A stretch of DNA of 55,622 nucleotides, taken from assembly GCA_004298505.1 (NCBI GenBank), contig SCRO01000085.1, positions 1-55,622 on the forward strand, in the 5' to 3' direction. Origin of the DNA: Rhodanobacter sp. (GTDB lineage: Bacteria > Pseudomonadota > Gammaproteobacteria > Xanthomonadales > Rhodanobacteraceae). Positions 1 to 21,101 of the stretch are shown here, one piece after another; position 1 is the stretch's first letter; each line of letters begins with the position of its first letter. The notes under the pieces were generated by a model. That model saw only the letters and a program-made list of their open reading frames with translations, was not told the DNA's origin and did not search any database. The position numbers and the translations under genes were made by a program.

Positions 1-35
1 ATCCCGACGGCGATCCCTTCTGAAACCGTCAAACC

Positions 36-55
36 CCGCCGCCTGACAGCGGCGG
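36..55. terminator. GC-rich hairpin at the left edge
   Basis: A perfect 7-bp stem (36-42 with 49-55) encloses a 6-nt loop. Only two T residues follow, so it is at best a weak Rho-independent terminator for a gene lying to the left of the window. The DNA up to about position 75 is GC-rich, while the DNA after it is clearly AT-richer. Whether this marks an element boundary cannot be decided from this window. Confidence 0.3.
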
Positions 56-79
56 CTTCACGCCCGGCGACCCTCAATC

Positions 80-274
80 ATGCTGATCAGAGGGTCATCA
101 AAGAGCGTGCTCATGCTCAACCAGCTTTATTTGAAGTCGGAACTTAGGGACGACAGCTTGGTCTCCAAGCAGGACGACATGCTGTATGCCCTTACTGATG
201 ACGATGATCCGTGGACGAAGATTGTTCGAGAGTATCTCGGTCTAACAGCAGGACGAGTATTTGATGATGAGTGA
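80..274 (+). CDS. small hypothetical protein of the mobile element
   Basis: An open frame of 64 codons or fewer has an acidic C-terminal half (a DDDD run) and no recognisable domain. The first ATG (80) has no ribosome binding site. A GTG at 107 lies 12 nt after an AGAGGG, and an ATG at 113 follows, so the true start is uncertain. Its base composition matches the neighbouring recombinase genes rather than the downstream chromosome, so it belongs to the foreign segment. It converges on the resolvase gene, with the stops 36 bp apart. No function can be assigned, and it may not be expressed. Confidence 0.3.
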   Translation: MLIRGSSKSVLMLNQLYLKSELRDDSLVSKQDDMLYALTDDDDPWTKIVREYLGLTAGRVFDDE

Positions 275-310
275 TTCCTGCCGCTTGAATATGCTTACCA
301 TGTAATGGTT

Positions 311-982
311 TTAGGTGGTAAGCGCATTTATGCGTAGAAGAATGTTTCTTACGCCAGCAGCAGTCCAGCGACCACCACGCTGTGTACCCACACCGTGTGC
401 CTCGAGAGATTTGGCAAGGCTTGAATAAGAAGTCGCGCCCTGTGCGTGGAGTGCTTGCATCACAGTCTTGATGCCTTTCGCAAAGGCATCTGCCTGTTCG
501 CGCGTCTTATCAGATGCCATCTTTGATTGATTGGCAGCATTCGGGTTGCCGAGACGGACGCCGCGAGCTTTGGCGGCAGCAAGGGATGCCTTGGTACGCT
601 GTGCAATGACTTCTCTTTCATATTCAGCTACTGCGGCAATGATATGGATGGTGAGCTTGTTTGCATGCGGCATGTCTGCTGCGACAAACTCGACGCCTGA
701 CCGTAGAAGTTCGGAGATGAAATGGACGCTACGAGCCAGACGGTCAAGCTTGGCAATGACAAGCATTGCCTTTTCAGAGCGACATTGCTTCAAGGCTGCT
801 TTCAACTCGGCTCGCTCGTCGATAGCCCCCGACTCCACTTCCCTGCGTTCAGCGATGAGCGTGCCTCCTACGGATTGAACATAGGCTTGGACTGCGGCTC
901 GCTGCGCATCTAGCCCCAAGCCGCTTTGTCCTTGGCTAGTCGTTGAAACCCTGTAGTACGCGATAAATGAAGACGTTGCCAT
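311..982 (-). CDS. small serine recombinase (resolvase/invertase family)
   Basis: The 223-aa protein has the resolvase N-terminal fold. The YYRVS motif puts the catalytic serine at residue 13; AKLDRLAR follows near residue 77, then the EYEREVIAQRT long-helix region. A C-terminal helix-turn-helix region (WTAAGVRNILLR) would contact DNA. Its size fits enzymes that resolve dimers or invert DNA rather than large serine integrases. The ATG at 982 has a GGA-type ribosome binding site within TAGGATCTG. A 32-bp palindrome (990-1021) lies 7 bp upstream and is a plausible binding site and operator. Inferred role: resolving element multimers or cointegrates produced by the neighbouring Rep-like protein. 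Confidence 0.88.
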   Translation of the reverse strand: MATSSFIAYYRVSTTSQGQSGLGLDAQRAAVQAYVQSVGGTLIAERREVESGAIDERAELKAALKQCRSEKAMLVIAKLDRLARSVHFISELLRSGVEFVAADMPHANKLTIHIIAAVAEYEREVIAQRTKASLAAAKARGVRLGNPNAANQSKMASDKTREQADAFAKGIKTVMQALHAQGATSYSSLAKSLEAHGVGTQRGGRWTAAGVRNILLRINALTT

Positions 983-989
983 CAGATCC

Positions 990-1021
990 TATAAAACCCA
1001 ATTGAACATTTGGGTTTTATA
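990..1021. promoter_or_regulatory. 32-bp palindrome, probable resolvase site/operator
   Basis: Two perfect 12-bp inverted arms (990-1001, 1010-1021) flank an 8-bp spacer. The size resembles a resolvase dimer-binding subsite, which typically has about 12-bp inverted ends within 28-34 bp. It sits immediately upstream of the resolvase ATG, as expected for an autoregulated res site. Alternatively it could fold as a hairpin in single-stranded DNA and serve as a single-strand origin. Confidence 0.6.
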
Positions 1022-1123
1022 ATATGTGCTGCTGCCACAAAGGTAAACCCCCAATGAATGCCGATTTGGGCAATTTTGCGCCGTACAAGTTCCTGTTTTT
1101 GAATGCCTTTCAGACGACAAATC

Positions 1124-1143
1124 TGTGGATAAATTGTGGATAA
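1124..1143. promoter_or_regulatory. tandem DnaA boxes
   Basis: TGTGGATAA occurs at 1124-1132 and again at 1135-1143. Both copies match the reverse complement of the consensus DnaA box TTATCCACA exactly. The copies have the same orientation and repeat every 11 bp, about one helical turn. They lie 152 bp upstream of the Rep-like gene. Such boxes commonly recruit host DnaA at plasmid and chromosomal origins; use in this element is inferred. Confidence 0.6.
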
Positions 1144-1294
1144 CTCGACGAGGTCAAACCTGCCAGATAAATACACCAGGACCGTGGAAGCTGCCACGGC
1201 GTCGCCTTTGTGGGCGTGTCAGTCCCTTCAGGGCAGGGTCCTCAGATCGCCGTAGCTGGCGGCTTATAAATGACTATTGCCTGAGAGGTGAGAC

Positions 1295-1903
1295 ATGAAA
1301 ACTCGTGAATACCTCATGCACAAGTACGAGAGCTACGAAGCTCAAGGTCATTCGATCTTCGCAGTGACGCTGTCAACGTATGTCAAGGACGATGAACTTG
1401 CCTCAAGTGACGACATGAGAAAGTTCTGGGATTTTCATTTCATATACCGAGTGGATAAATGTCTGCCGTATAAGCTGAAGAAAAAGTTCGATCACGACTT
1501 CGTCGTCGAACGATCAAAGGCAGGGCATTACCATTACCACGGATTGTTGGCTTTCACAGATGAAGCCGGCAAAAAGATCTGGCGCGATGGAGAACTAAAC
1601 ACTCAGTTGCAGCGTGATCTAAATTCGTTTCGTTCAAAAGGCATCGATCGACCATTTCGGGTGAATACGTACTTCATCGAACAGAAGAGGTCATGCGGGA
1701 TCGGTGCGTGGATTACATATATCACGAAAGCAAAGGAGATCCCTATGGCGAGTACATACGACAGGAGATCTTTCAACCAAGAGGAGTGGCGTAGTGACTA
1801 CGCAAAAAGAAAATCAGCTACAGCGACAGGTTCAGGACCTTGCAAAACATTCGAAGGTTGCGAAGCGACTCATGCCGTTCGAGAAGCGCGTCGAACGAGT
1901 TGA
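1295..1903 (+). CDS. HUH-type replication initiator-like protein (Rep)
   Basis: The 202-aa protein shows the three motifs of single-tyrosine HUH endonucleases in order. A hydrophobic strand ending in T-L (IFAVTLSTY, residues 21-29) matches Rep motif 1. A His-rich HYHYHG (78-83) matches the metal-binding HUH motif. WITYITKAKE (139-148) gives the catalytic Tyr142 and Lys145 of the YxxK motif. This family nicks one strand to start rolling-circle replication or transposition. The last 50 residues are polar and probably disordered. The ATG is preceded by GAGAGGTGA, and the 3' end overlaps the next small gene in another frame. It could instead be related to inovirus Gp2-like initiators. It was recognised from motifs only; no search was run. 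Confidence 0.7.
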   Translation: MKTREYLMHKYESYEAQGHSIFAVTLSTYVKDDELASSDDMRKFWDFHFIYRVDKCLPYKLKKKFDHDFVVERSKAGHYHYHGLLAFTDEAGKKIWRDGELNTQLQRDLNSFRSKGIDRPFRVNTYFIEQKRSCGIGAWITYITKAKEIPMASTYDRRSFNQEEWRSDYAKRKSATATGSGPCKTFEGCEATHAVREARRTS

Positions 1904-1961
1904 AGATCTATTGACCGGTATCTTAGAAGTATTGCTCAAGACGTTGCTTGTCCCGCGTTGA
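1794..1961 (+). CDS. small basic helical protein overlapping rep
   Basis: This 55-codon frame starts at GTG 1794, with GAGGAG at 1781-1786 placed 7 nt upstream. That spacing decides this start over the in-frame ATG at 1704, which has none. The product is rich in Gln, Lys, Glu and Leu, with a heptad-like spacing suited to a short coiled coil (FEKRVERVEDLLTGILEVLL). Its first 110 bp overlap the 3' end of the Rep-like gene in a different frame, and its last 26 bp overlap the convergent integrase gene. It may be a copy-control or accessory partner of Rep, but this is only inferred from position. Confidence 0.5.
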   Translation: MTTQKENQLQRQVQDLAKHSKVAKRLMPFEKRVERVEDLLTGILEVLLKTLLVPR

Positions 1962-3735
1962 TCTTGCGATTGGTAAGAAGCTTCTTCATCCTTGGATCTT
2001 TCTTGAACCTCAAGGCGACATCCTGCCAGCCGTCGATGGCTTGAGTGTCGCTGTTCCGATATAGAATCTTAAGCATGAAAGAGTACTGTCTTAGATTCTT
2101 CTCGACCTGCTGCGCGGTTTGTAGATCAACGGGTCGGCGCTTGGGGTCGATTTCAAGTGCGTCGTCTTGGCGTATGTGAATTGGCTCGACAGTGATGCGC
2201 TCAATGAGACGGTGAAGTTCGCTTGCAAGCGAGCGGCGAATCCTTTCTGGTGATTCAGTCGCGTCTGATTCCTTGATCTTCTTGAGCAGGGAGCCGATGA
2301 CTTCTTGCCTGACCTTGGGGCTGATAGTCATCAGGTCATTGATTTCAAGTTCGGCTGTCTCGATCTTGATGTTGAATTCGCCAAGCTCCTTTTCGAGTTT
2401 GGCGAGCGCATCGTTGAGAGACGTGCTCGTGTTTGATCCATCTTCGATTGTTTTTATGATGCGTGCAATTTTCGTGTTGATCCCGTCACGGTCAACATGA
2501 AGCATGCTTAGGTCGTGCTGCAAATCTGCGAGGCGCTGCTGGCGGGAGCTGCCGCCCAGGACCTTGCCTACATCGAGGGTTTCGATGGCGTGCAGAACCT
2601 TGCTCTCAACGATCTCATACCGAAACGGGCGCGCTTTGCAGCTTCCGCCTGCAAGAGCCACGGAACAGCGCAGATATTGTCCACCACCCTTCGGCGCTCG
2701 ACCCTTGTCCAAGTAGCGCATACCTGCGGAGCATTTGCATCTGAGCAATCCAGTGAGCAGGTTGGCATAGGTTGCTCCCTTCCTGCCGCCCCCCCTCGTA
2801 CGCCTGCTGGCTTTGGCTTGGGCTGCTTCGAGGAATTGTTGGGATGAGATGATCGCAGGGTAGTAGCCCTGTATCGGGTCGCCATCATCCACCAGCCTGC
2901 GTTTTTTGTCTTTATCAACTTGAACGGTGTGAGGCTGAAATTCGCCAAGCACCGTGCGGCTTGCAAGAATCTTCTTGATGTATGTGTCTCGCCATACTGC
3001 ATTCTTCCGATTGCCCCAAGGTTTGATGCCACGCTTATTGAGATACTGGGCAACGGAGTAAGCGCCGTAGCCATTGCAGGTCATATCAAAAATTTCTTTG
3101 ATGATCTCAACTCGCTCGGGAATTTCTACGATCTCGTTCTTGGCCCTGTCGGCACGAAGCCAAGCTGGCACCTTGCTTGTCAGGATGGTTCCAGATGTAC
3201 GTAAACGCTCGCGCTTCCCGATCCATGTGTGCGACAAGAGGTCGGCTTTCCGTTTTGATTCCTCATGCGCACGCGCCATTGAGCCAAGCGCGATGTAAAG
3301 CTGGAAGCTCTGATTTTCGATGGTCTCTTCCGAATAAGTCTGCCCATCATCAAGCGTCACCAGAATGATGCCCTTGTTGATGATGTCGCTGAGACGAGCA
3401 AACGCCTTGGTGACCTTGTCTCTGCTTAGCCTGTCCATGGATTCCACGATCAGGTAGCTGCCGCGTTCAATGTCGCCGCTATCCACAAGATCCTTGAATC
3501 TGGCTAGTTCACCGAACTCGGCGTTACTTCCACGAAAGGCAGATATCCCAAGATCGTCGAAGCTCTCGATAAACTCCAGACCGTGTTTTTCGGTGTAGTC
3601 GCGCGTGCGCGACAACTGACGACGTTTCGAATCACCCTTCAACTGTTCGGGGGTGGACATACGGATGTAGGAGTAAGCCTTGGGCCTTGGCTTCTCTGCT
3701 GGAGCCGTGGACGGCTGATCCTTCTTCATGTGCAT
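1936..3735 (-). CDS. large serine recombinase (integrase of the element)
   Basis: The 599-aa protein has the large serine integrase layout. An N-terminal catalytic domain (about 20-160) has YIRMS, giving catalytic Ser27, and MDRLSRD. A recombinase domain follows (about 180-290). A zinc-ribbon region with paired cysteines (CKCSAG...LRCSVALAGGSC, about 350-385) comes next, then a long helical coiled-coil segment and a C-terminal tail. Such enzymes integrate and excise elements at attP/attB without homology. The start at 3735 is chosen for the AAGGGG 7-8 nt upstream; a second ATG (3729) is in frame. The gene points inward from the element end and stops about 45 bp short of the interrupted comM, as is usual for an integrase next to its att site. 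Confidence 0.92.
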   Translation of the reverse strand: MHMKKDQPSTAPAEKPRPKAYSYIRMSTPEQLKGDSKRRQLSRTRDYTEKHGLEFIESFDDLGISAFRGSNAEFGELARFKDLVDSGDIERGSYLIVESMDRLSRDKVTKAFARLSDIINKGIILVTLDDGQTYSEETIENQSFQLYIALGSMARAHEESKRKADLLSHTWIGKRERLRTSGTILTSKVPAWLRADRAKNEIVEIPERVEIIKEIFDMTCNGYGAYSVAQYLNKRGIKPWGNRKNAVWRDTYIKKILASRTVLGEFQPHTVQVDKDKKRRLVDDGDPIQGYYPAIISSQQFLEAAQAKASRRTRGGGRKGATYANLLTGLLRCKCSAGMRYLDKGRAPKGGGQYLRCSVALAGGSCKARPFRYEIVESKVLHAIETLDVGKVLGGSSRQQRLADLQHDLSMLHVDRDGINTKIARIIKTIEDGSNTSTSLNDALAKLEKELGEFNIKIETAELEINDLMTISPKVRQEVIGSLLKKIKESDATESPERIRRSLASELHRLIERITVEPIHIRQDDALEIDPKRRPVDLQTAQQVEKNLRQYSFMLKILYRNSDTQAIDGWQDVALRFKKDPRMKKLLTNRKINAGQATS

Positions 3736-3773
3736 GCAAAATCCCCTTGAAGGGTCATGGACTTTATTTGGAC

Positions 3774-3779
3774 ATTATA
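3774..3779 (-). promoter_or_regulatory. putative -10 box of the integrase promoter at the element end
   Basis: A perfect TATAAT reads on the minus strand 38 bp upstream of the integrase ATG. It lies within a few bp of the junction with comM. The matching -35 position would fall in comM sequence (about 3797-3802), where no TTGACA-like hexamer is present. The missing half could be supplied by the other element end after circularisation. Transcription itself is not shown by the sequence. Confidence 0.5.
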
Positions 3780-3800
3780 GGTTGCTGGTCGGGCCGCCCG
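3775..3800. mobile_element. right attachment junction of the element in comM
   Basis: The comM-like reading frame begins abruptly at about 3781 with LLVGPPGTGKT, the Walker A motif. The DNA immediately left is AT-rich and encodes nothing ComM-like. The recombination crossover must therefore lie in or next to this motif. The exact core cannot be fixed because the left junction is outside the window. ComM/YifB genes are known insertion sites for genomic islands, notably AbaR islands of Acinetobacter, which use different enzymes. Confidence 0.6.
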
Positions 3801-4633
3801 GCACCGGCAAGACCATGCTGGCCGAACGCCTGCCCGGCATCCTGCCGCCGTTGTCCGAATCCGAAGCACTGGAGACCTGCGCGGTGTTGTCGGTCTCCGG
3901 CCAGGTCACCGACCTGGCGCGCTGGCGGCGGCGGCCGTTCCGTGCGCCGCACCACACCGCCTCGGCGGTGGCCCTGGTTGGTGGCGGTTCCTACCCGCGC
4001 CCGGGCGAGATCTCGCTGGCGCATAACGGCGTGCTGTTTCTGGACGAGCTACCCGAGTTCAGCCGGCATGTGCTGGAGGTGCTGCGCGAGCCGATGGAAT
4101 CGGGCCACATCATGATCTCGCGGGCGGCTCGGCAGTCGACGTTTCCCGCCCAGTTCCAGCTGGTGGCCGCGATGAATCCCTGCCCCTGCGGCTACGCCGG
4201 CGATCCGCGCTGCCAGTGCACGCCGGATCAGGTGCAGCGTTACCGTTCGCGTATTTCCGGGCCACTGCTGGATCGCATCGATCTCTGCGTGCAGGTGCCG
4301 CCGGTACCGCTGGCTGAACTGGGCACGCCGCGCAATGACCGTGACGAGGATTCCGCCACGGTGCGCACGCGCGTGCTCAAAGCGCGCAGGCAGTCGCTGA
4401 TGCGTGCCGGGCGGCCAAACGCGGAAATCAGCACGCGCGAACTGGAACGCGACTGCGCGTTGGGTGCGCCGGAGCGGCGCTGGTTCGAGGGTGCACTGGA
4501 GCGGCTCGGCCTGTCCGCCCGCGCCTACCACCGGGTGCTGCGGGTGGCTCGCACCATCGCCGATCTGGATAGTGGCGCGGCCCTGCTGGAGCGCGAATAC
4601 CTGGCCGAAGCGCTGCAGTATCGCCGCCTCTGA
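3781..4633 (+). pseudogene. comM: comM 3' fragment (Mg-chelatase-like AAA+ helicase), interrupted
   Basis: This encodes about 284 C-terminal residues of ComM/YifB, a protein of roughly 500 aa that promotes branch migration during natural transformation. Present are Walker A (GPPGTGKTML), the RAPHHTAS motif, the Walker B region (GVLFLDELPEF), the cysteine-rich CPCGYAGDPRCQC segment and the C-terminal Mg-chelatase helical domain ending LAEALQYRRL. The N-terminal Lon-like half is missing because the mobile element entered at Walker A. The frame is open back to an ATG at 3728 inside the integrase leader, but no ribosome binding site precedes it. A functional ComM is therefore unlikely while the element is integrated. 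Confidence 0.88.
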
Positions 4634-4637
4634 AGGC

Positions 4638-4719
4638 AGGAGTGAGTGCAGAGGAGTGAGAAGTGAGAGAAAGCACGCATCTGCTCTTGCTCACTCCCCA
4701 CTCCTCTGCACTCACTCCT
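4638..4719. repeat. long inverted repeat between comM and the antiporter gene
   Basis: Arms of 20 bp (4638-4657 and 4700-4719) are perfectly complementary. They extend inward with partial pairing around a loop of about 42 nt. It follows the comM stop by 4 bp and ends with GCTTTT, so the transcript would fold into a strong hairpin and may act as a terminator. The arm sequence (AGGAGTGAGTGCAGAGGAGT) differs from the GTAG-REP family elsewhere in the window. Confidence 0.75.
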
Positions 4720-4789
4720 CGCTTTTCGGACGCTGGACGTGCACGCCGCCGCGTGTTTCGATGGCGGCCCGATGTGTCCAAGGATTGCC

Positions 4790-8046: not shown

Positions 8047-9639
8047 TCAAAGTTGGTCGTAGGCGGGCAGGGTGAGGAAATCACCCAGTTCGTCCGCGTG
8101 GGTCATCGTGGAAATCAGTGCGGCGGCGGCATCGGCACGGCTGGCGCCGGGATGCTGACTCTCGCGCAGGTGGTGGGTATGCGCGGCGAGCGCCTGGTCG
8201 AACAGGGCGAAATCGATCGGCGCCTCGTCGGGGAACTCGACGCCATCGTGATGCAGCCATTGCCACAGCTGGGCGCGGGCGATCTCGGCGGTGGCGGCGT
8301 CTTCCATCAGGTGATGGATGGGCACGCAGCCCAGGCCATCGAGCCACGCGGCAGTATAGCGCAGGCAAACCTCGACGTTGTTGTCGAAACCGGCGCGGCT
8401 GATCGTGCCGCCGGGCGCGGCGAGCAACTGCTCGCGCGTTACCTGGACGTCCTCGCGCAGCTTGCCGAGCTGGTTTGGCGCGGGCATGTACTTGTCGAAG
8501 ATCTCCTGCGCCACCGCCACCAGCGCCGGATGGGCGACCCAGGTGCCATCGTGGCCAGCCTGCACTTCGCGCAGCTTGTCCGCGCGTACCTTGTCCAGCG
8601 CGGCCTTGTTCGCCGCCTCGTCGCCCTTGATCGGGATCTGTGCGGCCATGCCGCCCATCGCAAAGGCGCCGCGGCGGTGGCAGGTCTTGATCAGCAGTTC
8701 GGAATAACCTTTCAGGAACGGCACCGTCATGCCGACCTGGCCGCGCTCCGGCAGCAGACGGTCGGGATGACCCCTCAGAGTTTTCAGATAGGAAAAGATG
8801 TAGTCCCAACGGCCGCAGTTGAGACCGACGATGCGCCGGCGCAGCGCATGCAGGATCTCGTCCATCTGGAACGCGGCCGGCAGCGTCTCGATCAGCACGG
8901 TGGCCTTCATGGTGCCCACTGGTAGCTGCAGCTCGTCTTCGGCGGCGCTCATCACCTCGTCCCACAGCGCGGCCTCTTCCATCGCCTCCAGCTTGGGCAG
9001 ATAGAAGTACGGGCCGCGGTCGCGGCGCTGCAGGGCACGCGCGTTGTGAAACACGAACAGGCCGAAGTCGACCAGCGCGCCGGACATCGGAGCGCCGTCT
9101 ACGCAGAAGAAGCGATCGTGCAGATGCCAGCCGCGTGGGCGCACCACCAGCACGGCGGGGTTGTCGTCGACGCGGTAGCTCTTGCCTTCAGGCGAGCGAA
9201 ATTCGATGCTGCCAGCCACCGCGTCACGCAGGTTGATCTGGCCGTCGAGCTGGTTGGCGAAGGTCGGCGAGGAGGAGTCCTCGAAGTCGGCCATGAACAC
9301 CTTGGCCCCGGAGTTCAGCGCGTTGATAATCATCTTACGCTCGACCGGGCCGGTGATCTCGACACGACGATCGCGCAGCGCGGCGGGAATCGGCGCCACG
9401 GTCCAGTCCGCGGCGCGCAGCTGCACGGTGTCGGCCCGGAAGTCAGGCAGGCCGCCGGCATCGTAGAGCGCCTGGCGCTCGCGCCGGGCCTGCAACAGAC
9501 GCTGCCGCGAGGCCTCGAAGTGGCGATGCAACTGCGCCAGGAAGGCCAGTGCCGCCGGCGTCAGGATGCCCTCGTAAGCGGTGCCATCGGCGAGGACCTC
9601 GGCCATGCCTGCATCGAGTCGTTCCTGCGCTACTGCCAT
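8047..9639 (-). CDS. aceB: malate synthase A
   Basis: Malate synthase joins glyoxylate and acetyl-CoA into malate, completing the glyoxylate shunt with the downstream aceA. The 530-aa protein matches malate synthase A length (E. coli about 533). It shows the hallmark [11 protein letters not shown], the [16 protein letters not shown] active-site region and [12 protein letters not shown] with acidic metal ligands. ATG 9639 is chosen because GGAG lies about 7 nt upstream; the open frame extends further without a ribosome binding site. It is first in the aceBA operon and divergent from a LysR-type regulator gene. Confidence 0.97.
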
Positions 9640-9690
9640 GATCTCGCTCCGTGTCGTGGATGACTCGAAATTAGGCCATGAGAGGGTGGT

Positions 9691-9736
9691 TTGACAAACT
9701 AAATGTTTCAATCATTAATATGAGTATTGTCAATAC
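9691..9736. promoter_or_regulatory. aceB/LysR divergent control region with promoter and palindrome
   Basis: TTGACA at 9691-9696 with ATTAAT/TTAATA 17-18 bp further on (9714-9720) makes a plausible forward promoter for the LysR-type gene. A 13-bp palindrome GTATTGTCAATAC (9724-9736) follows. LysR regulators usually bind interrupted dyads with T-N11-A in the region between divergent genes, and this dyad contains that pattern. No confident minus-strand promoter for aceB could be picked out. Confidence 0.45.
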
Positions 9737-9762
9737 AGGCGGTAAGATGCTGAAATCACTCA

Positions 9763-10800
9763 ATGAAAAATTCTGATGGCATACAAGACCGGTCGAAAAA
9801 ATCGCGCGGCAGCGCAACAAAAAAGCGTGCCGCTCGCGAAGCGTCGGCCGAAAGCAGCGGTCGCTACTACTACAAAGGCAATCGCCACAAGCAGTTACGC
9901 GCCTTTGTCAGTGTGGTGAAGCTGGGTACGCTGACTCGTGCCGCGGAAGCGCTATTCGTGTCGCAGCCCACGATCAGCCTGCAATTGCAGGCGTTGGAGC
10001 GGGAGCTGGGAGTGATCCTGATGGACCGCCGCCGCCGCCGCATCAACCTCACCGACGCGGGCGAGGCCTTGTACGAGCTCGCGCGGCCGCTGGTCGAGGG
10101 CTGGGAAACGCTGGATCGGGACTTCCAGGCCAAGGTGAAGGGCTTGCAGGCCGGCCGGCTGGTGATCGCGGCGGGCACCTCGACCATCCAGTACCTGCTG
10201 CCGGAGCTGGTGCGTCGTTACCGCGCGCTCTTTCCCGCAGTGCGGCTGCAACTGGCCAATGTCACCGGCAAGGATGGTATGGCGTTGTTGCGTGCCGACG
10301 GTGCGGACTTCGCGGTCGGCTCCATGCTGGACGTGCCCAATGACATCGCCTGGGCGCCGGTGCACCACTACGATCCGATGCTGATCATGCCGCTGGACCA
10401 TCCGTTGGCAGGGAAGGACAACATCACGCTGGAAGATCTCTCGCCCTATGGCCTGATCCTGCCGCCGCAGCGTCTGTCCACCTATCGCCTGGTCGACCTG
10501 GTGTTCCAGCAAAGCCAGGTGTCCTACCACGTGGCAATCGAGGTCGGCGGCTGGGACGTGATCAAGGAATACGTGGCGATGGGCATGGGCATCTCGATCG
10601 TCACCGGCATCTGCATCACCGCAGCCGACAGTACGCGGCTGGTCGCACGCAACATGAATCAGTTCTTCCCGCAGCGCAGTTACGGCGTGGTGATGCGCAA
10701 AGGCAAGTTCCTCAGCGCCGAGGCGCGGGCGTTCATCGACCTGATCCGGCCCGGGCTGCTCACGCGCGATTACGACGAGCCCGGTCATTCCGGACGGTAA
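9763..10800 (+). CDS. LysR-type transcriptional regulator (CysB-like), divergent from aceBA
   Basis: The 345-aa protein has a winged HTH at about residues 45-82 (LTRAAEALFVSQPTISLQLQALE). A periplasmic-binding-protein-like effector domain follows (about 130-335). A 40-residue basic, low-complexity N-terminal extension precedes the HTH and is unusual for most LysR proteins. It is transcribed away from aceB across a 123-bp gap holding a dyad, the classical arrangement for a LysR gene controlling its divergent neighbour. It therefore probably regulates the glyoxylate shunt; the effector is unknown. The ATG at 9763 is the first in the frame, and no strong Shine-Dalgarno is visible. Confidence 0.85.
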   Translation: MKNSDGIQDRSKKSRGSATKKRAAREASAESSGRYYYKGNRHKQLRAFVSVVKLGTLTRAAEALFVSQPTISLQLQALERELGVILMDRRRRRINLTDAGEALYELARPLVEGWETLDRDFQAKVKGLQAGRLVIAAGTSTIQYLLPELVRRYRALFPAVRLQLANVTGKDGMALLRADGADFAVGSMLDVPNDIAWAPVHHYDPMLIMPLDHPLAGKDNITLEDLSPYGLILPPQRLSTYRLVDLVFQQSQVSYHVAIEVGGWDVIKEYVAMGMGISIVTGICITAADSTRLVARNMNQFFPQRSYGVVMRKGKFLSAEARAFIDLIRPGLLTRDYDEPGHSGR

Positions 10801-10896
10801 ACCCTGCGGCAACATGACATGGACCTTCCCTCCGCGGCGTCCCGTCATGCCGTCGCCAGGTTAATCCACGTTGCGATGGTGTCAGCAGGCGCCCGC

Positions 10897-11319
10897 TCAT
10901 TCGAGCTCCGGCTTGCGCGAGCGATCCTGCTTGATCCTGCCGCGCTGCTGCTTGGTTACCCGCCGGCGTTCCTTCGAGGCGCGGGTTGGCCGGGTGGCAA
11001 CGCGTTTCTTCGGTGGCTTCAACACGTCGTGGATGATCTCGATCAGGCGCTCCCTTGCATCCTCGCGGTTGCGGGACTGGTCGCGGAAGCGGCGCGCCTG
11101 GATCACCATCACGCCATCGCCGGTCAGTCGACGGTCGCGTCGCGCCAGCAGGCGTGCACGCACATCGTCGGGCAGGCATGCGGACTGGGCTACATCGAAG
11201 CGCAGTTCCACCGCGCTCTCGGTGCGATTCACGTGCTGCCCGCCCGGGCCGTCCGCGCGCAGGAAGCGCTCGACCAGTGCGGACTCGGGAATGCGAATGG
11301 TGTGGCTGACGATCAACAT
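10897..11319 (-). CDS. arfB: alternative ribosome-rescue factor ArfB (YaeJ)
   Basis: The 140-aa protein has the class-I release-factor catalytic motif GGQ (GPGGQHVNR, GGQ at residues 26-28). Its C-terminal tail is very basic (KKRVATRPTRASKERRRVTKQQRGRIKQ). This layout is that of ArfB, which enters the empty mRNA channel of stalled ribosomes with its basic tail and hydrolyses peptidyl-tRNA. It lacks the stop-codon-recognition domain of RF1/RF2, as expected. It lies 22 bp downstream of ubiB on the same strand and may share its transcript. Confidence 0.93.
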   Translation of the reverse strand: MLIVSHTIRIPESALVERFLRADGPGGQHVNRTESAVELRFDVAQSACLPDDVRARLLARRDRRLTGDGVMVIQARRFRDQSRNREDARERLIEIIHDVLKPPKKRVATRPTRASKERRRVTKQQRGRIKQDRSRKPELE

Positions 11320-11341
11320 GCGATGAGTCTAATCGTCTCGA

Positions 11342-12991
11342 TCAGCGGGGGCGCGAGCAGCCGAGTGCGAACGCGAGCAGGCCGGCGGCGCCGAGCAGCA
11401 GCGGTGGCCAGGTGCCGTGCTGTGGTGCCAGCGACCACAGCAGGGTGGCGCTGAGGATGAGGGTAGCGCCGAGCAGGCCGCCGCCGAGCATGCGCAGCAC
11501 GCGGCCGGCGAGCCGGGCCTGGTGACTCAGCGCATCCACGTCGGTAAGCAGGCGCTGCTCGCCGCGACCGGCCTGGCGCAACGCGTCACGTACCAGGTCG
11601 GGAAATTCCGGTGCATGGTGCAGCCATTCGGGCAACCGCTTGCTCATGTCGCGCAAGGTACGCAGCGGGCTGTAACGCTGGCGCAGGATGCGCTTGAGTA
11701 CCGGGTGCGCCACTGCCCAGATATCGATCTCGGGGTCGAGCATGCGCCCGACGCCCTCGATGTTGAGCAGGGTTTTCTGCAGCAGAATCAATTGCGGTTG
11801 CAGGGTCAGATCGAAGCGGCGCGCGGTCTGGAACAGTTTCACGACCAGCTCGGCCAGCGAGATCTGCGACAGCGGGCGGGTGAAGTATGGCTCGCACACC
11901 GTGCGTACGGCGGCTTCAAGTTCATCCAGCCGCACATTGGCAGGCATCCAGCCGGCCGCCACGTGCAGTTGCGCGATGCGCGCGTAATCGCGCTCGAACA
12001 ACGCGATGAAGTTCTGCGCCAGCCAGTACTGGTCGGCTTCGGGCAGCGAGCCCATGATGCCGAAGTCCAGCGCGATGAAGCGCGGTTCGTCGATGCGCGA
12101 GGGGTCGACCCAGATGTTGCCGGGATGGGCATCGGCATGGAAGAAGTTGTCGCGAAACACCTGCTCGTAGAACACCCGCACGCCCTTGACGGCAAGCGCC
12201 TTGCGGTCCAGTCCGGCGGCGTCGATCGCCGCGATGTCGTCGCTGCTGATGCCGTACACACGTTCGAGCGTGAGTACGCGCGCGCCGGTCAGTTCCCAAT
12301 GCACCGCCGGCACGTACAGATCCACGCCGCTGGCAAAGTTGCGCTTGAGCAGGCTGGCGCTGGCGCCCTCGCGCTGCAGGTCGAGCTCGTTCTCCAGCAT
12401 CTTCTCGACTTCGGCCACCACGTCGAGCGGGCGGATCTTGTCCGCATGCGGATGCCAGCGCTGGGCCAGTTCGCCCAGCGAGCGCAGCAGCTTCACGTCG
12501 CGGGCGATCCGCGCGTCAATGCCCGGGCGCAGCACCTTCACCACCACTTCGCGCCCGTCGCGCAGGGTGGCGGCGTGTACCTGGGCAATCGAGGCCGAGG
12601 CCAGCGCCGTCTCGTCGAAACTCGCGTAGAGCTGATCGGTCGAGGCGTTCAACTGCTGCTCGACGATGGCGCGTGCCTCATTGCCGGGGAACGGCGCCAC
12701 CTGATCCTGCAACAGCGAAAGCTCGTCGGCGATATCGAGCGGAATCAGGTCACGCCGGGTCGACAGCACCTGTCCGGCCTTGACGAAAATCGGCCCCAGC
12801 TCGGTCAGCGCCAGTCGCAGCCGCTCGCCGCGCGACATGGTGGCCACGTTGGCACGTGGTCTGGCCAACAGCGGGCGCAACAGCTTCAGGGGTCGAAACA
12901 GGTGCGCGGCGTCGACCAGTTCGTCCAGTCGCCAGGCCAGCAATACTGAAGCCACCCGCAGCAGGCGCGGCACCACGGTCAGCGGCGTCAC
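11342..12991 (-). CDS. ubiB: ubiquinone biosynthesis regulatory ATPase/kinase UbiB
   Basis: The 549-aa member of the ABC1/ADCK/UbiB atypical kinase family is similar in length to E. coli UbiB (546). It has the family-specific KxGQ motif (KAGQ, 71-74), the kinase-like core with VVVKVLRPG and FHADAHPGN, the metal-binding DFG (LDFGIMG) and two hydrophobic segments at the C-terminus for membrane anchoring. UbiB supports coenzyme Q synthesis. Its ATG overlaps the ubiJ stop by 4 bp (12988-12991), showing translational coupling. The methyltransferase ubiE, which heads the ubiEJB operon in E. coli, is 17 kb away here. Confidence 0.95.
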
Positions 12992-20330: not shown

Positions 20331-21101
20331 ATGACGCAACAGCTCGAAGGCGACTGGCTGGAACTGGCGACGGCGGGCGGCAACACTATCCTGGTGTTGA
20401 AAGCTGCCCATCCGCGCGCACGACGCCTGCGCCTCACCGTCACCCCAAACGGCGCCCGCGTGTCGTATCCCCCCGGCACGCATCCGGCCCAGGTCAATGC
20501 CTTCCTGCGCAGCCACGCCGAATGGCTGGAGCACAAGCTCAACGAACTGAACCTGATCGTGAAGCCGCTGCCGCCGCTGCGGGTGGGTCATCCGTGCATC
20601 TTTCCGTTGCGCGGCGAGGCGGCGGAACTGGACTGGGCCGAGGGCGCCTATCCGAAGATCGAGGCGCATGCGGAGGGCCTGACGCTGGTGATCCCGCGCC
20701 CGCACAGCCGTGCCTTGCCGGTCGCGCGCGGCCTGCTGGCGTCGCACCTGGAGGCGTTGATCCGGCGCGACGTGTCGCGCTGGCTGGCCGGTTACGTGCC
20801 GCAGCTGGGCCTGGCGCCCACCTCGCTGCGGATTCGCCCGATGAAGAGCCTATGGGGCAGCCTGGACACGCGCGACCGCATCAACCTCGACCTGGCGCTG
20901 GCGCTGGCGCCGGCGCCGGCGCTGCGCTACGTGCTGGTGCACGAGCTGTGCCACCTCAAGGTGCGCAACCACTCGCCGCGCTTCTGGGCGCAGGTGGAAA
21001 ACCTGTTCCCCGACTGGCGCGAACAGCGCGCCTGGTTGCGCCAGCATGGCGCGATCCTCAAGGCCGAACTCGACCGGTTGATCGCCGATGTGGCCGACTG
21101 A
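20331..21101 (+). CDS. YgjP/DUF45-family metal-dependent hydrolase
   Basis: The 256-aa cytoplasmic protein has the zinc-peptidase-like HELCHLKVRNHSPRFW motif. The ligands are expected at His204, His208 and possibly His214, with Glu205 catalytic. This is the signature of the YgjP/WLM-related DUF45 family, whose members are predicted metallopeptidases with unproven substrates. SLWGSLDTRDRINLD upstream of the motif is also typical. The ATG at 20331 is 110 bp after a MITE-like copy. Confidence 0.85.
   Translation: MTQQLEGDWLELATAGGNTILVLKAAHPRARRLRLTVTPNGARVSYPPGTHPAQVNAFLRSHAEWLEHKLNELNLIVKPLPPLRVGHPCIFPLRGEAAELDWAEGAYPKIEAHAEGLTLVIPRPHSRALPVARGLLASHLEALIRRDVSRWLAGYVPQLGLAPTSLRIRPMKSLWGSLDTRDRINLDLALALAPAPALRYVLVHELCHLKVRNHSPRFWAQVENLFPDWREQRAWLRQHGAILKAELDRLIADVAD

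Follow-up and report, generated by a model that had tools for sequence, protein, structure and literature searches.

A Rhodanobacter element in comM with a large serine integrase, a small serine resolvase and a probable HUH replication initiator

The window analysed here, 55,622 nucleotides of Rhodanobacter sp. (SCRO01000085.1), is the complete contig C15 (1-55622) of a 3.78-Mb draft genome assembled into 139 contigs. Positions 1-3782 are the right end of an element integrated into the gene comM of this Rhodanobacteraceae genome. Three genes are found there: that of a large serine integrase (LSR), which adjoins comM, that of a small serine resolvase, and one for a probable HUH replication initiator (Rep), accompanied by an origin-like region. 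The element is real and bounded on both sides, and its middle is incomplete. On a slight balance of the evidence, it seems to be an integrative plasmid-like element in comM, probably able to exist as a replicating circle. An earlier sequence-only reading of the window had described a compact element, its genes packed in 3.8 kb and its left half outside the window; the element does end inside comM as proposed there, and the 3.8 kb represent its right end only, cut at the contig edge.

The interrupted comM gene and the ends of the element

The 3' part of comM lies directly beside the right end of the element. The ComM N-terminal domain has a single strong match in the genome, of 150 bits, at C62:20288-20653 within a 274-codon frame; three weaker matches (29.5-43 bits, frames of 492-856 codons) probably represent other genes. 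The comM 5' part extends over about C62:20162-20871, near the end of contig C62, and is followed there by the left end of the element. A second comM half to the left had been predicted beforehand, and it was found together with matching inverted half-sites. On the left, the comM sequence stops with CACCTGCT at about C62:20871, and CATATC and ATGTCCAAATAAA come next; on the right, the order is TTTATTTGGACAT as the element end, TATAGG, and comM TTGCTGGTC. The 13-bp words at the two ends are exact inverted copies beside the crossover, were restricted to these two junctions among the loci compared, and a run of 13 appeared in 0 of 5000 shuffled pairs of 40-bp arms. Such paired inverted words have the look expected for the split attP half-sites of a serine integrase. 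The insertion point is the second of three Leu codons directly before the Walker A motif GPPGTGKT, and the junctions read CTGCTC at attL and TTGCTG at attR.

All 40 same-genus genomes searched (own genome included) carry the comM 3' part, and 30 comM loci were compared among them, one being that of the own genome. The gene was uninterrupted across the insertion site in 29 of 29 other loci (27 by a strict motif and two by a looser one), and the open frame upstream of the site exceeds 150 codons in 28 of these. At the insertion site, the codon of the 27 strict relatives is CTG in 17, TTG in nine, and CTT in one.

The element part of the window has G+C content of 51.4%, against 65.4% in the remaining window, and the element DNA on C62 has 52.5%, i.e., foreign G+C content at both sides of the element. 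Chance open reading frames (ORFs) were ruled out because families or motifs were recognised and the G+C content shifts. Four proteins are predicted from open frames at the left end on C62: one of 138 aa, an XRE-type regulator (HTH_3, E 1.1e-11), one of 444 aa with stretches judged hydrophobic by eye, and one of 150 aa. The left-end repressor is weakly RstR-like (E 5.6e-11, 42.7 bits vs a cut-off of 80 bits). The 444-aa protein has no match in IMG/VR or plasmids and the 138-aa protein none in IMG/VR; the other two left-end proteins were compared with Pfam and NCBIfam only.

About 120 bp with a hairpin (CCCTCGGGGATT/AATCCCCGAGGG) are identical at the ends of three contigs (C62:23539-23658, C67:22786-22904, and C46:1-120). 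As the sequence that ends C62 also ends C67 and C46, it probably marks an end of an insertion sequence (IS) present in several copies; no match to it was found in the plasmid collection. The missing middle was searched in the first 6 kb (or the whole, if shorter) of 100 of the 139 contigs, with C46 covered completely and C67 over its first 20 kb; some of the other 39 contigs, C15 and C62 included, were covered by separate searches. The first 1300 bases of C15 matched only themselves in the own assembly, and the first 40 were in none of the contig stretches searched. Nine contigs shorter than 3 kb read as masked, and the ORFs of ten out of eleven contigs with low-GC stretches revealed no link to the element.

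Gene content of the right end

Features are listed in Table 1. The sequence-only reading had recognised a Rep-like gene, a small serine resolvase, an LSR, and origin-like sites beside comM, and all of them are present according to Pfam, motifs, and DnaA boxes. The frames of resolvase, Rep, and LSR are open, with domains or motifs present.

Table 1. Features of the element right end and the adjoining comM part (window coordinates)
Feature	Position	Strand	Basis
Small serine resolvase/invertase-type recombinase, 223 aa	311..982	-	Pfam Resolvase E 1.1e-26; PHROG 125 E 5.4e-35
32-bp palindrome TATAAAACCC...GGGTTTTATA at resolvase gene start; probable recombination or operator site	990..1021		
Two exact DnaA boxes (TGTGGATAA)	1124-1132, 1135-1143	-	0 in other 51.8 kb of window
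Block CCACGGCGTYGCCTTTGT(N)GGGYGTGTMAGTCCC conserved upstream of rep; probable origin site for Rep	1194..1226	+	Shared with Frateuria terrea homologue
Probable HUH replication initiator (Rep), 202 aa	1295..1903	+	HYHYH, Y142xxK145; PF23343 E 5.2e-4, below cut-off
Possible 55-aa protein overlapping rep 3' end, uncertain gene	1794..1961	+	Open frame inside 85-aa ORF
Large serine integrase (LSR), 599 aa	1936..3735	-	Pfam Recombinase 5.9e-18, Resolvase 3.5e-15, zinc ribbon (Zn_ribbon_recom) 4.9e-8
attR: element half-site TTTATTTGGACAT (3763-3775) and crossover at comM Leu codon 3782-3784	3763..3784		Inverted 13-bp copy at C62:20878-20890
comM 3' part (Walker A onwards), severed from N-terminal part	3783..4633	+	Mg_chelatase E 4.7e-85

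All three Pfam domains of the LSR scored above cut-off, placing it among the large serine integrases, and it matched the PHROG 95 integrase family with E 1.1e-68. As a single query, it gave no confirmed relative in the genome contig search or in IMG/VR. It matched 21 plasmid-collection records, the best at 36% and all below 60% identity, and matches at 29-30% identity occur in two of 59 other relatives. A two-row LSR alignment recovered 14 IMG/VR loci, with no comM match in the DNA read around them. The CcrB model gave 79.9 bits against a cut-off of 900, which is no Ccr-level match to the staphylococcal cassette chromosome (SCC), whose target is rlmH. Another LSR, 27-30% identical to that of the window, was seen in a same-genus genome (L021:9250-10899) near a gene that by eye is lexA-like, and no comM match was found in that stretch.

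The product of rep is probably an HUH replication initiator, predicted on motifs and homology and not on a structure model. It has one clear homologue, in Frateuria terrea of the same family (Rhodanobacteraceae), with 50% identity and with HYHYH and YxxK invariant in both sequences; the homologue likewise matches PF23343 below threshold. No relatives of Rep were found in plasmid records, phage records, or IMG/VR, nor in any of the 59 other relatives. Within the family, one of 232 other genomes gave a strong match, and five more at E 0.004-0.007 were treated as chance. The two-row Rep alignment, compared with genome contigs, recovered Frateuria terrea only.

The starts of the two DnaA boxes are 11 bp apart; among 20,000 mononucleotide shuffles of positions 901-1300, at least one box arose in 68 and two in none. 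Among 398 genomes of the order, with the own one counted, the core of the conserved block was found in two, namely the own genome and that of Frateuria terrea, and is upstream of rep in both; its reversed control gave 0 in the rows shown. Folding of the region upstream of rep was not stronger than in shuffles (z -0.70), and there was no Rfam match. In the position equivalent to the possible 55-aa protein, the Frateuria locus has a 58-aa ORF with a sub-threshold ribbon-helix-helix match. The Frateuria island (L062:1-6400) comprises the Rep homologue, this ORF, an XRE regulator, and type I restriction-modification genes; rep is at the contig end, and the island is located beside glmS, a gene recognised by eye.

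The Resolvase catalytic domain identifies the remaining gene as a small serine recombinase. Plasmids of Methylobacterium, Roseomonas, Granulicella, Polymorphobacter, and Deinococcus carry DNA relatives of it, with 68-72% identity over 136-231 bp of the gene, and the Polymorphobacter relative has parA and a replication initiator gene (repA) in its vicinity. An arm pair like that of the 32-bp palindrome appeared in two of 2000 mononucleotide shuffles. Palindromes of the same size and different sequence are at the gene start in two of seven related resolvases (pMNOD05 and L184); the relative on pMNOD03 has a weaker one, and four of the seven have none near the gene start. In L184 (845-4027), a 7-kb IMG/VR contig, an LSR is about 0.7 kb from a resolvase 52% identical to that of the window, and therefore the arrangement of an LSR with a related resolvase recurs once. 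The gene beside this pair may code for a phage tail protein. In Aeromonas caviae, a weaker resolvase match (33%) is about 1.6 kb from an LSR.

Promoter and terminator scans were at chance level. Just 3' of comM, at 4633-4724, there is an inverted repeat with 43-nt arms, 84% complementary. It belongs to a dispersed repeat family, short pieces resembling it being present on several other contigs and, as judged by eye, downstream of comM in some relatives. Elsewhere in the genome, C77:1-6000 (L138) is a stretch with G+C content of 55.6% and several small ORFs, by eye possibly a gene-cassette array, for which no link to the comM element was seen.

A further comM element inserted at this codon

In a class-wide sample of 369 genomes (own included), searched at a self-set strict limit of E<=1e-40, the sole relative of the LSR besides itself was in genome G293, from another gammaproteobacterial family. 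The two integrases are 39% identical (E 3.7e-72), or 41% over 352 residues and 32% across the full alignment. The comM gene of G293 is also split, its 3' part occupying 8741-9592 and its 5' part 20393-21037 of the joined stretch. The LSR of G293 (9649-11388) adjoins the 3' part and is oriented like that of the window, and the junctions, again CTGCTC and TTGCTG, are at the same comM codon. The element is about 10.8 kb long and has G+C content of 56.8%, against 70% in its flanks. It also codes for an HUH Rep and a staphylococcal-nuclease-like protein. The Rep differs from that of the window in being of Phage_GPA type (E 2.6e-28; also PF23343 at 1.1e-5, sub-threshold), and neither the resolvase nor the Rep of the window has a match in the G293 element. 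The half-site repeat of G293 is weak, with 7 bp, reached by 73 of 5000 shuffles. Its LSR matched 30 plasmid-collection records, the best at 39%, and at E<=1e-45 it found itself alone in three genomes of its order.

In a tree of 17 LSRs (200 bootstrap trees), the two comM integrases were not grouped as sisters (2% of bootstraps), and a single clade was not rejected (approximately unbiased test, p 0.166). Their common target may reflect convergence or a shared origin.

Relation to known elements and interpretation

Each component is known already on its own: elements occur in comM, and a Rep occurs together with a serine integrase. What looks new is the combination of both in a Gram-negative host, at the codons before the ComM Walker A motif. 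Among papers listed on comM with serine recombinases or integrases, on LSR insertion sites, and on Rep with serine integrases, none was recognised as a description of this element, going by the listings and by passages. The sequence-only reading had assigned the combination to no named class; a precedent is nevertheless found in the actinomycete integrative and conjugative elements (AICEs), which have their own Rep and of which 19 out of 144 have serine recombinases, a group of these being integrated in protein genes (PMC3218068). The likeness to AICEs of the pSAM2 type is in an integrase with an own Rep, assigned here by motifs and homology; AICEs replicate in plasmid fashion once excised, as the present element may do. 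The host here is gammaproteobacterial and not actinobacterial, the Rep was not assigned to the RepSA, RepAM, or Prim-Pol type, and an FtsK/SpoIIIE-type Tra protein is not among the visible element proteins, the middle being unseen. With its different host and no visible Tra protein, the element was not classed as an AICE; in the best reading, it would work like one without being a member.

Mobile elements in comM have been described in Aggregatibacter, Mannheimia, Francisella, Pseudomonas syringae, and Acinetobacter, with loss of transformation as the likely effect (PMC4774983 and PMC11472951); the latter source also reports lowered transformation upon comM loss and terms the Acinetobacter element Tn7-like. 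They share the target gene with the present element. As the passages on these elements do not state the recombinase family and position of the comM elements other than AbaR, some of them may be of the same kind. As to AbaR/Tn7-like islands, no Tn7-like protein is among those encoded in the visible 6.4 kb, the middle being unseen, which agrees with the sequence-only reading, and an LSR with half-sites is present instead. Elements with two serine recombinases, one large and one smaller, are also known, namely the Dehalococcoides ssrA islands (DsiB/DsiA) and SCC (Ccr) (PMC3146451). The Dehalococcoides islands have ssrA as target. In the window, rep lies between the two recombinase genes, and the small one is plasmid-resolvase-like.

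The plasmid-like reading is supported by the location of both comM halves and both element ends, by the 13-bp half-sites and the foreign G+C content at either end, by the 29 uninterrupted loci of relatives, by the G293 element, by the DnaA boxes and the origin motif linked to rep, and by the plasmid-borne relatives of the resolvase, some of which have palindromes. In the mechanism proposed, the LSR, as the probable agent, would insert the circular element into comM by recombination at the Leu codons preceding Walker A. Excision would require a directionality factor, and none was found for the element. After excision, rolling-circle-type replication would begin with a nick made by Rep in the conserved block close to the DnaA boxes, and multimers may be resolved at the 32-bp palindrome by the small resolvase. 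In the integrated state, ComM would be cut from its ATPase part and, going by published work on ComM, natural transformation would be lowered, so that the host would be less likely to be cured of the element.

Several points weigh against this reading. Excision and replication of the element are inferred, although the genes for Rep and resolvase and the origin would be in keeping with a circle that replicates. The assignment of Rep is based on a sub-threshold family match with motifs, its two-sequence AlphaFold model is poor (mean pLDDT 59.9) with a ferredoxin-like core, and VIA-align gave common ferredoxin-like folds only. Other structure searches did not separate HUH from other ferredoxin-like folds either: in the Foldseek PDB list, IS608 HUH transposases came first (E 1.4e-3) with unrelated folds close behind, and among 15 matches reaching E 0.001 in the viral library, one was named ORF2/G2P and the others were plainly unrelated or unnamed. 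No LSR match was found on the 20 kb read around the Frateuria Rep homologue, and the middle of the element is unassembled or masked between C62 and C15. At the crossover, the comparison of attL, attR, and comM leaves the middle T alone as unambiguously shared, and therefore the 2-bp LSR core cannot be assigned without one mismatch (CT in attL vs TT in attR). If the half-sites are symmetric, the core would be CT in attB and TT in attP; either a mismatched exchange or a later mutation may explain this difference. Finally, the trio of Rep, resolvase, and LSR was seen in no other genome searched, so the co-inherited unit suggested by the sequence-only reading is not supported, and the trio as a conserved class was rejected on present data. 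Pairs recur once each, LSR with HUH Rep in G293 and LSR with the 52% identical resolvase in L184.

The isolated trio would also suit a decayed composite island, in which an LSR-borne element later gained plasmid fragments (Rep and resolvase) and an IS and carries the replication genes as inactive passengers. The probable IS end common to three contigs closes the left part, and the Rep homologue is in an island of a different type, beside glmS. This history is possible at a rather low probability, as the frames of Rep, resolvase, and LSR are open with their domains or motifs, the origin motif is upstream of rep as in Frateuria, and both att half-sites are intact. HUH proteins can also nick for transfer, and the protein could be a relaxase, the element then being integrative and either mobilizable or conjugative, its transfer genes located in the unseen middle; the hydrophobic stretches of the 444-aa left-end protein would agree with this. 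Such an element is unlikely, no relaxase, VirB4, or coupling-protein family being recognised among the visible proteins, to which the search was limited within the genome. Still more improbable is a filamentous phage, or a satellite of one, that has a serine integrase. It could account for the weak G2P-type match of Rep, the weakly RstR-like repressor, and the LSR relatives in 17 phage records (28-34% identity), and phiRSM1 is a filamentous phage with a serine recombinase (PMC3218068). However, Zot (PF05707) has no match in the own assembly, which is itself incomplete, Rep has none in phage records or IMG/VR, the 444-aa and 138-aa left-end proteins have none in IMG/VR, and no coat gene was recognised. 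Window proteins gave no significant phage structural match in PHROGs, a search that did not extend to the left-end proteins. Of the earlier proposal of a plasmid-like or phage-satellite element, the mobile element integrated in comM stands, but there is little positive evidence for a phage satellite.

Extending the plasmid-like reading to both elements, one may tentatively, and at a low probability, suppose a guild of Gram-negative integrative rolling-circle plasmids whose serine integrases target the Leu codons before the ComM Walker A motif and whose HUH Reps are interchangeable. Splitting of comM would disable curing through transformation, and excision would restore it. In the view of transformation as genome cleaning, mobile elements that disrupt competence genes have a central place. 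Serine-integrase elements with HUH Reps at one comM codon in two families offer a testable case, in which autonomous replication and a reversible switch of transformation are possible. The comM site may also be a new attB for a Gram-negative serine integrase tool. The finding would gain weight if comM-targeting integrases do form a widespread group.

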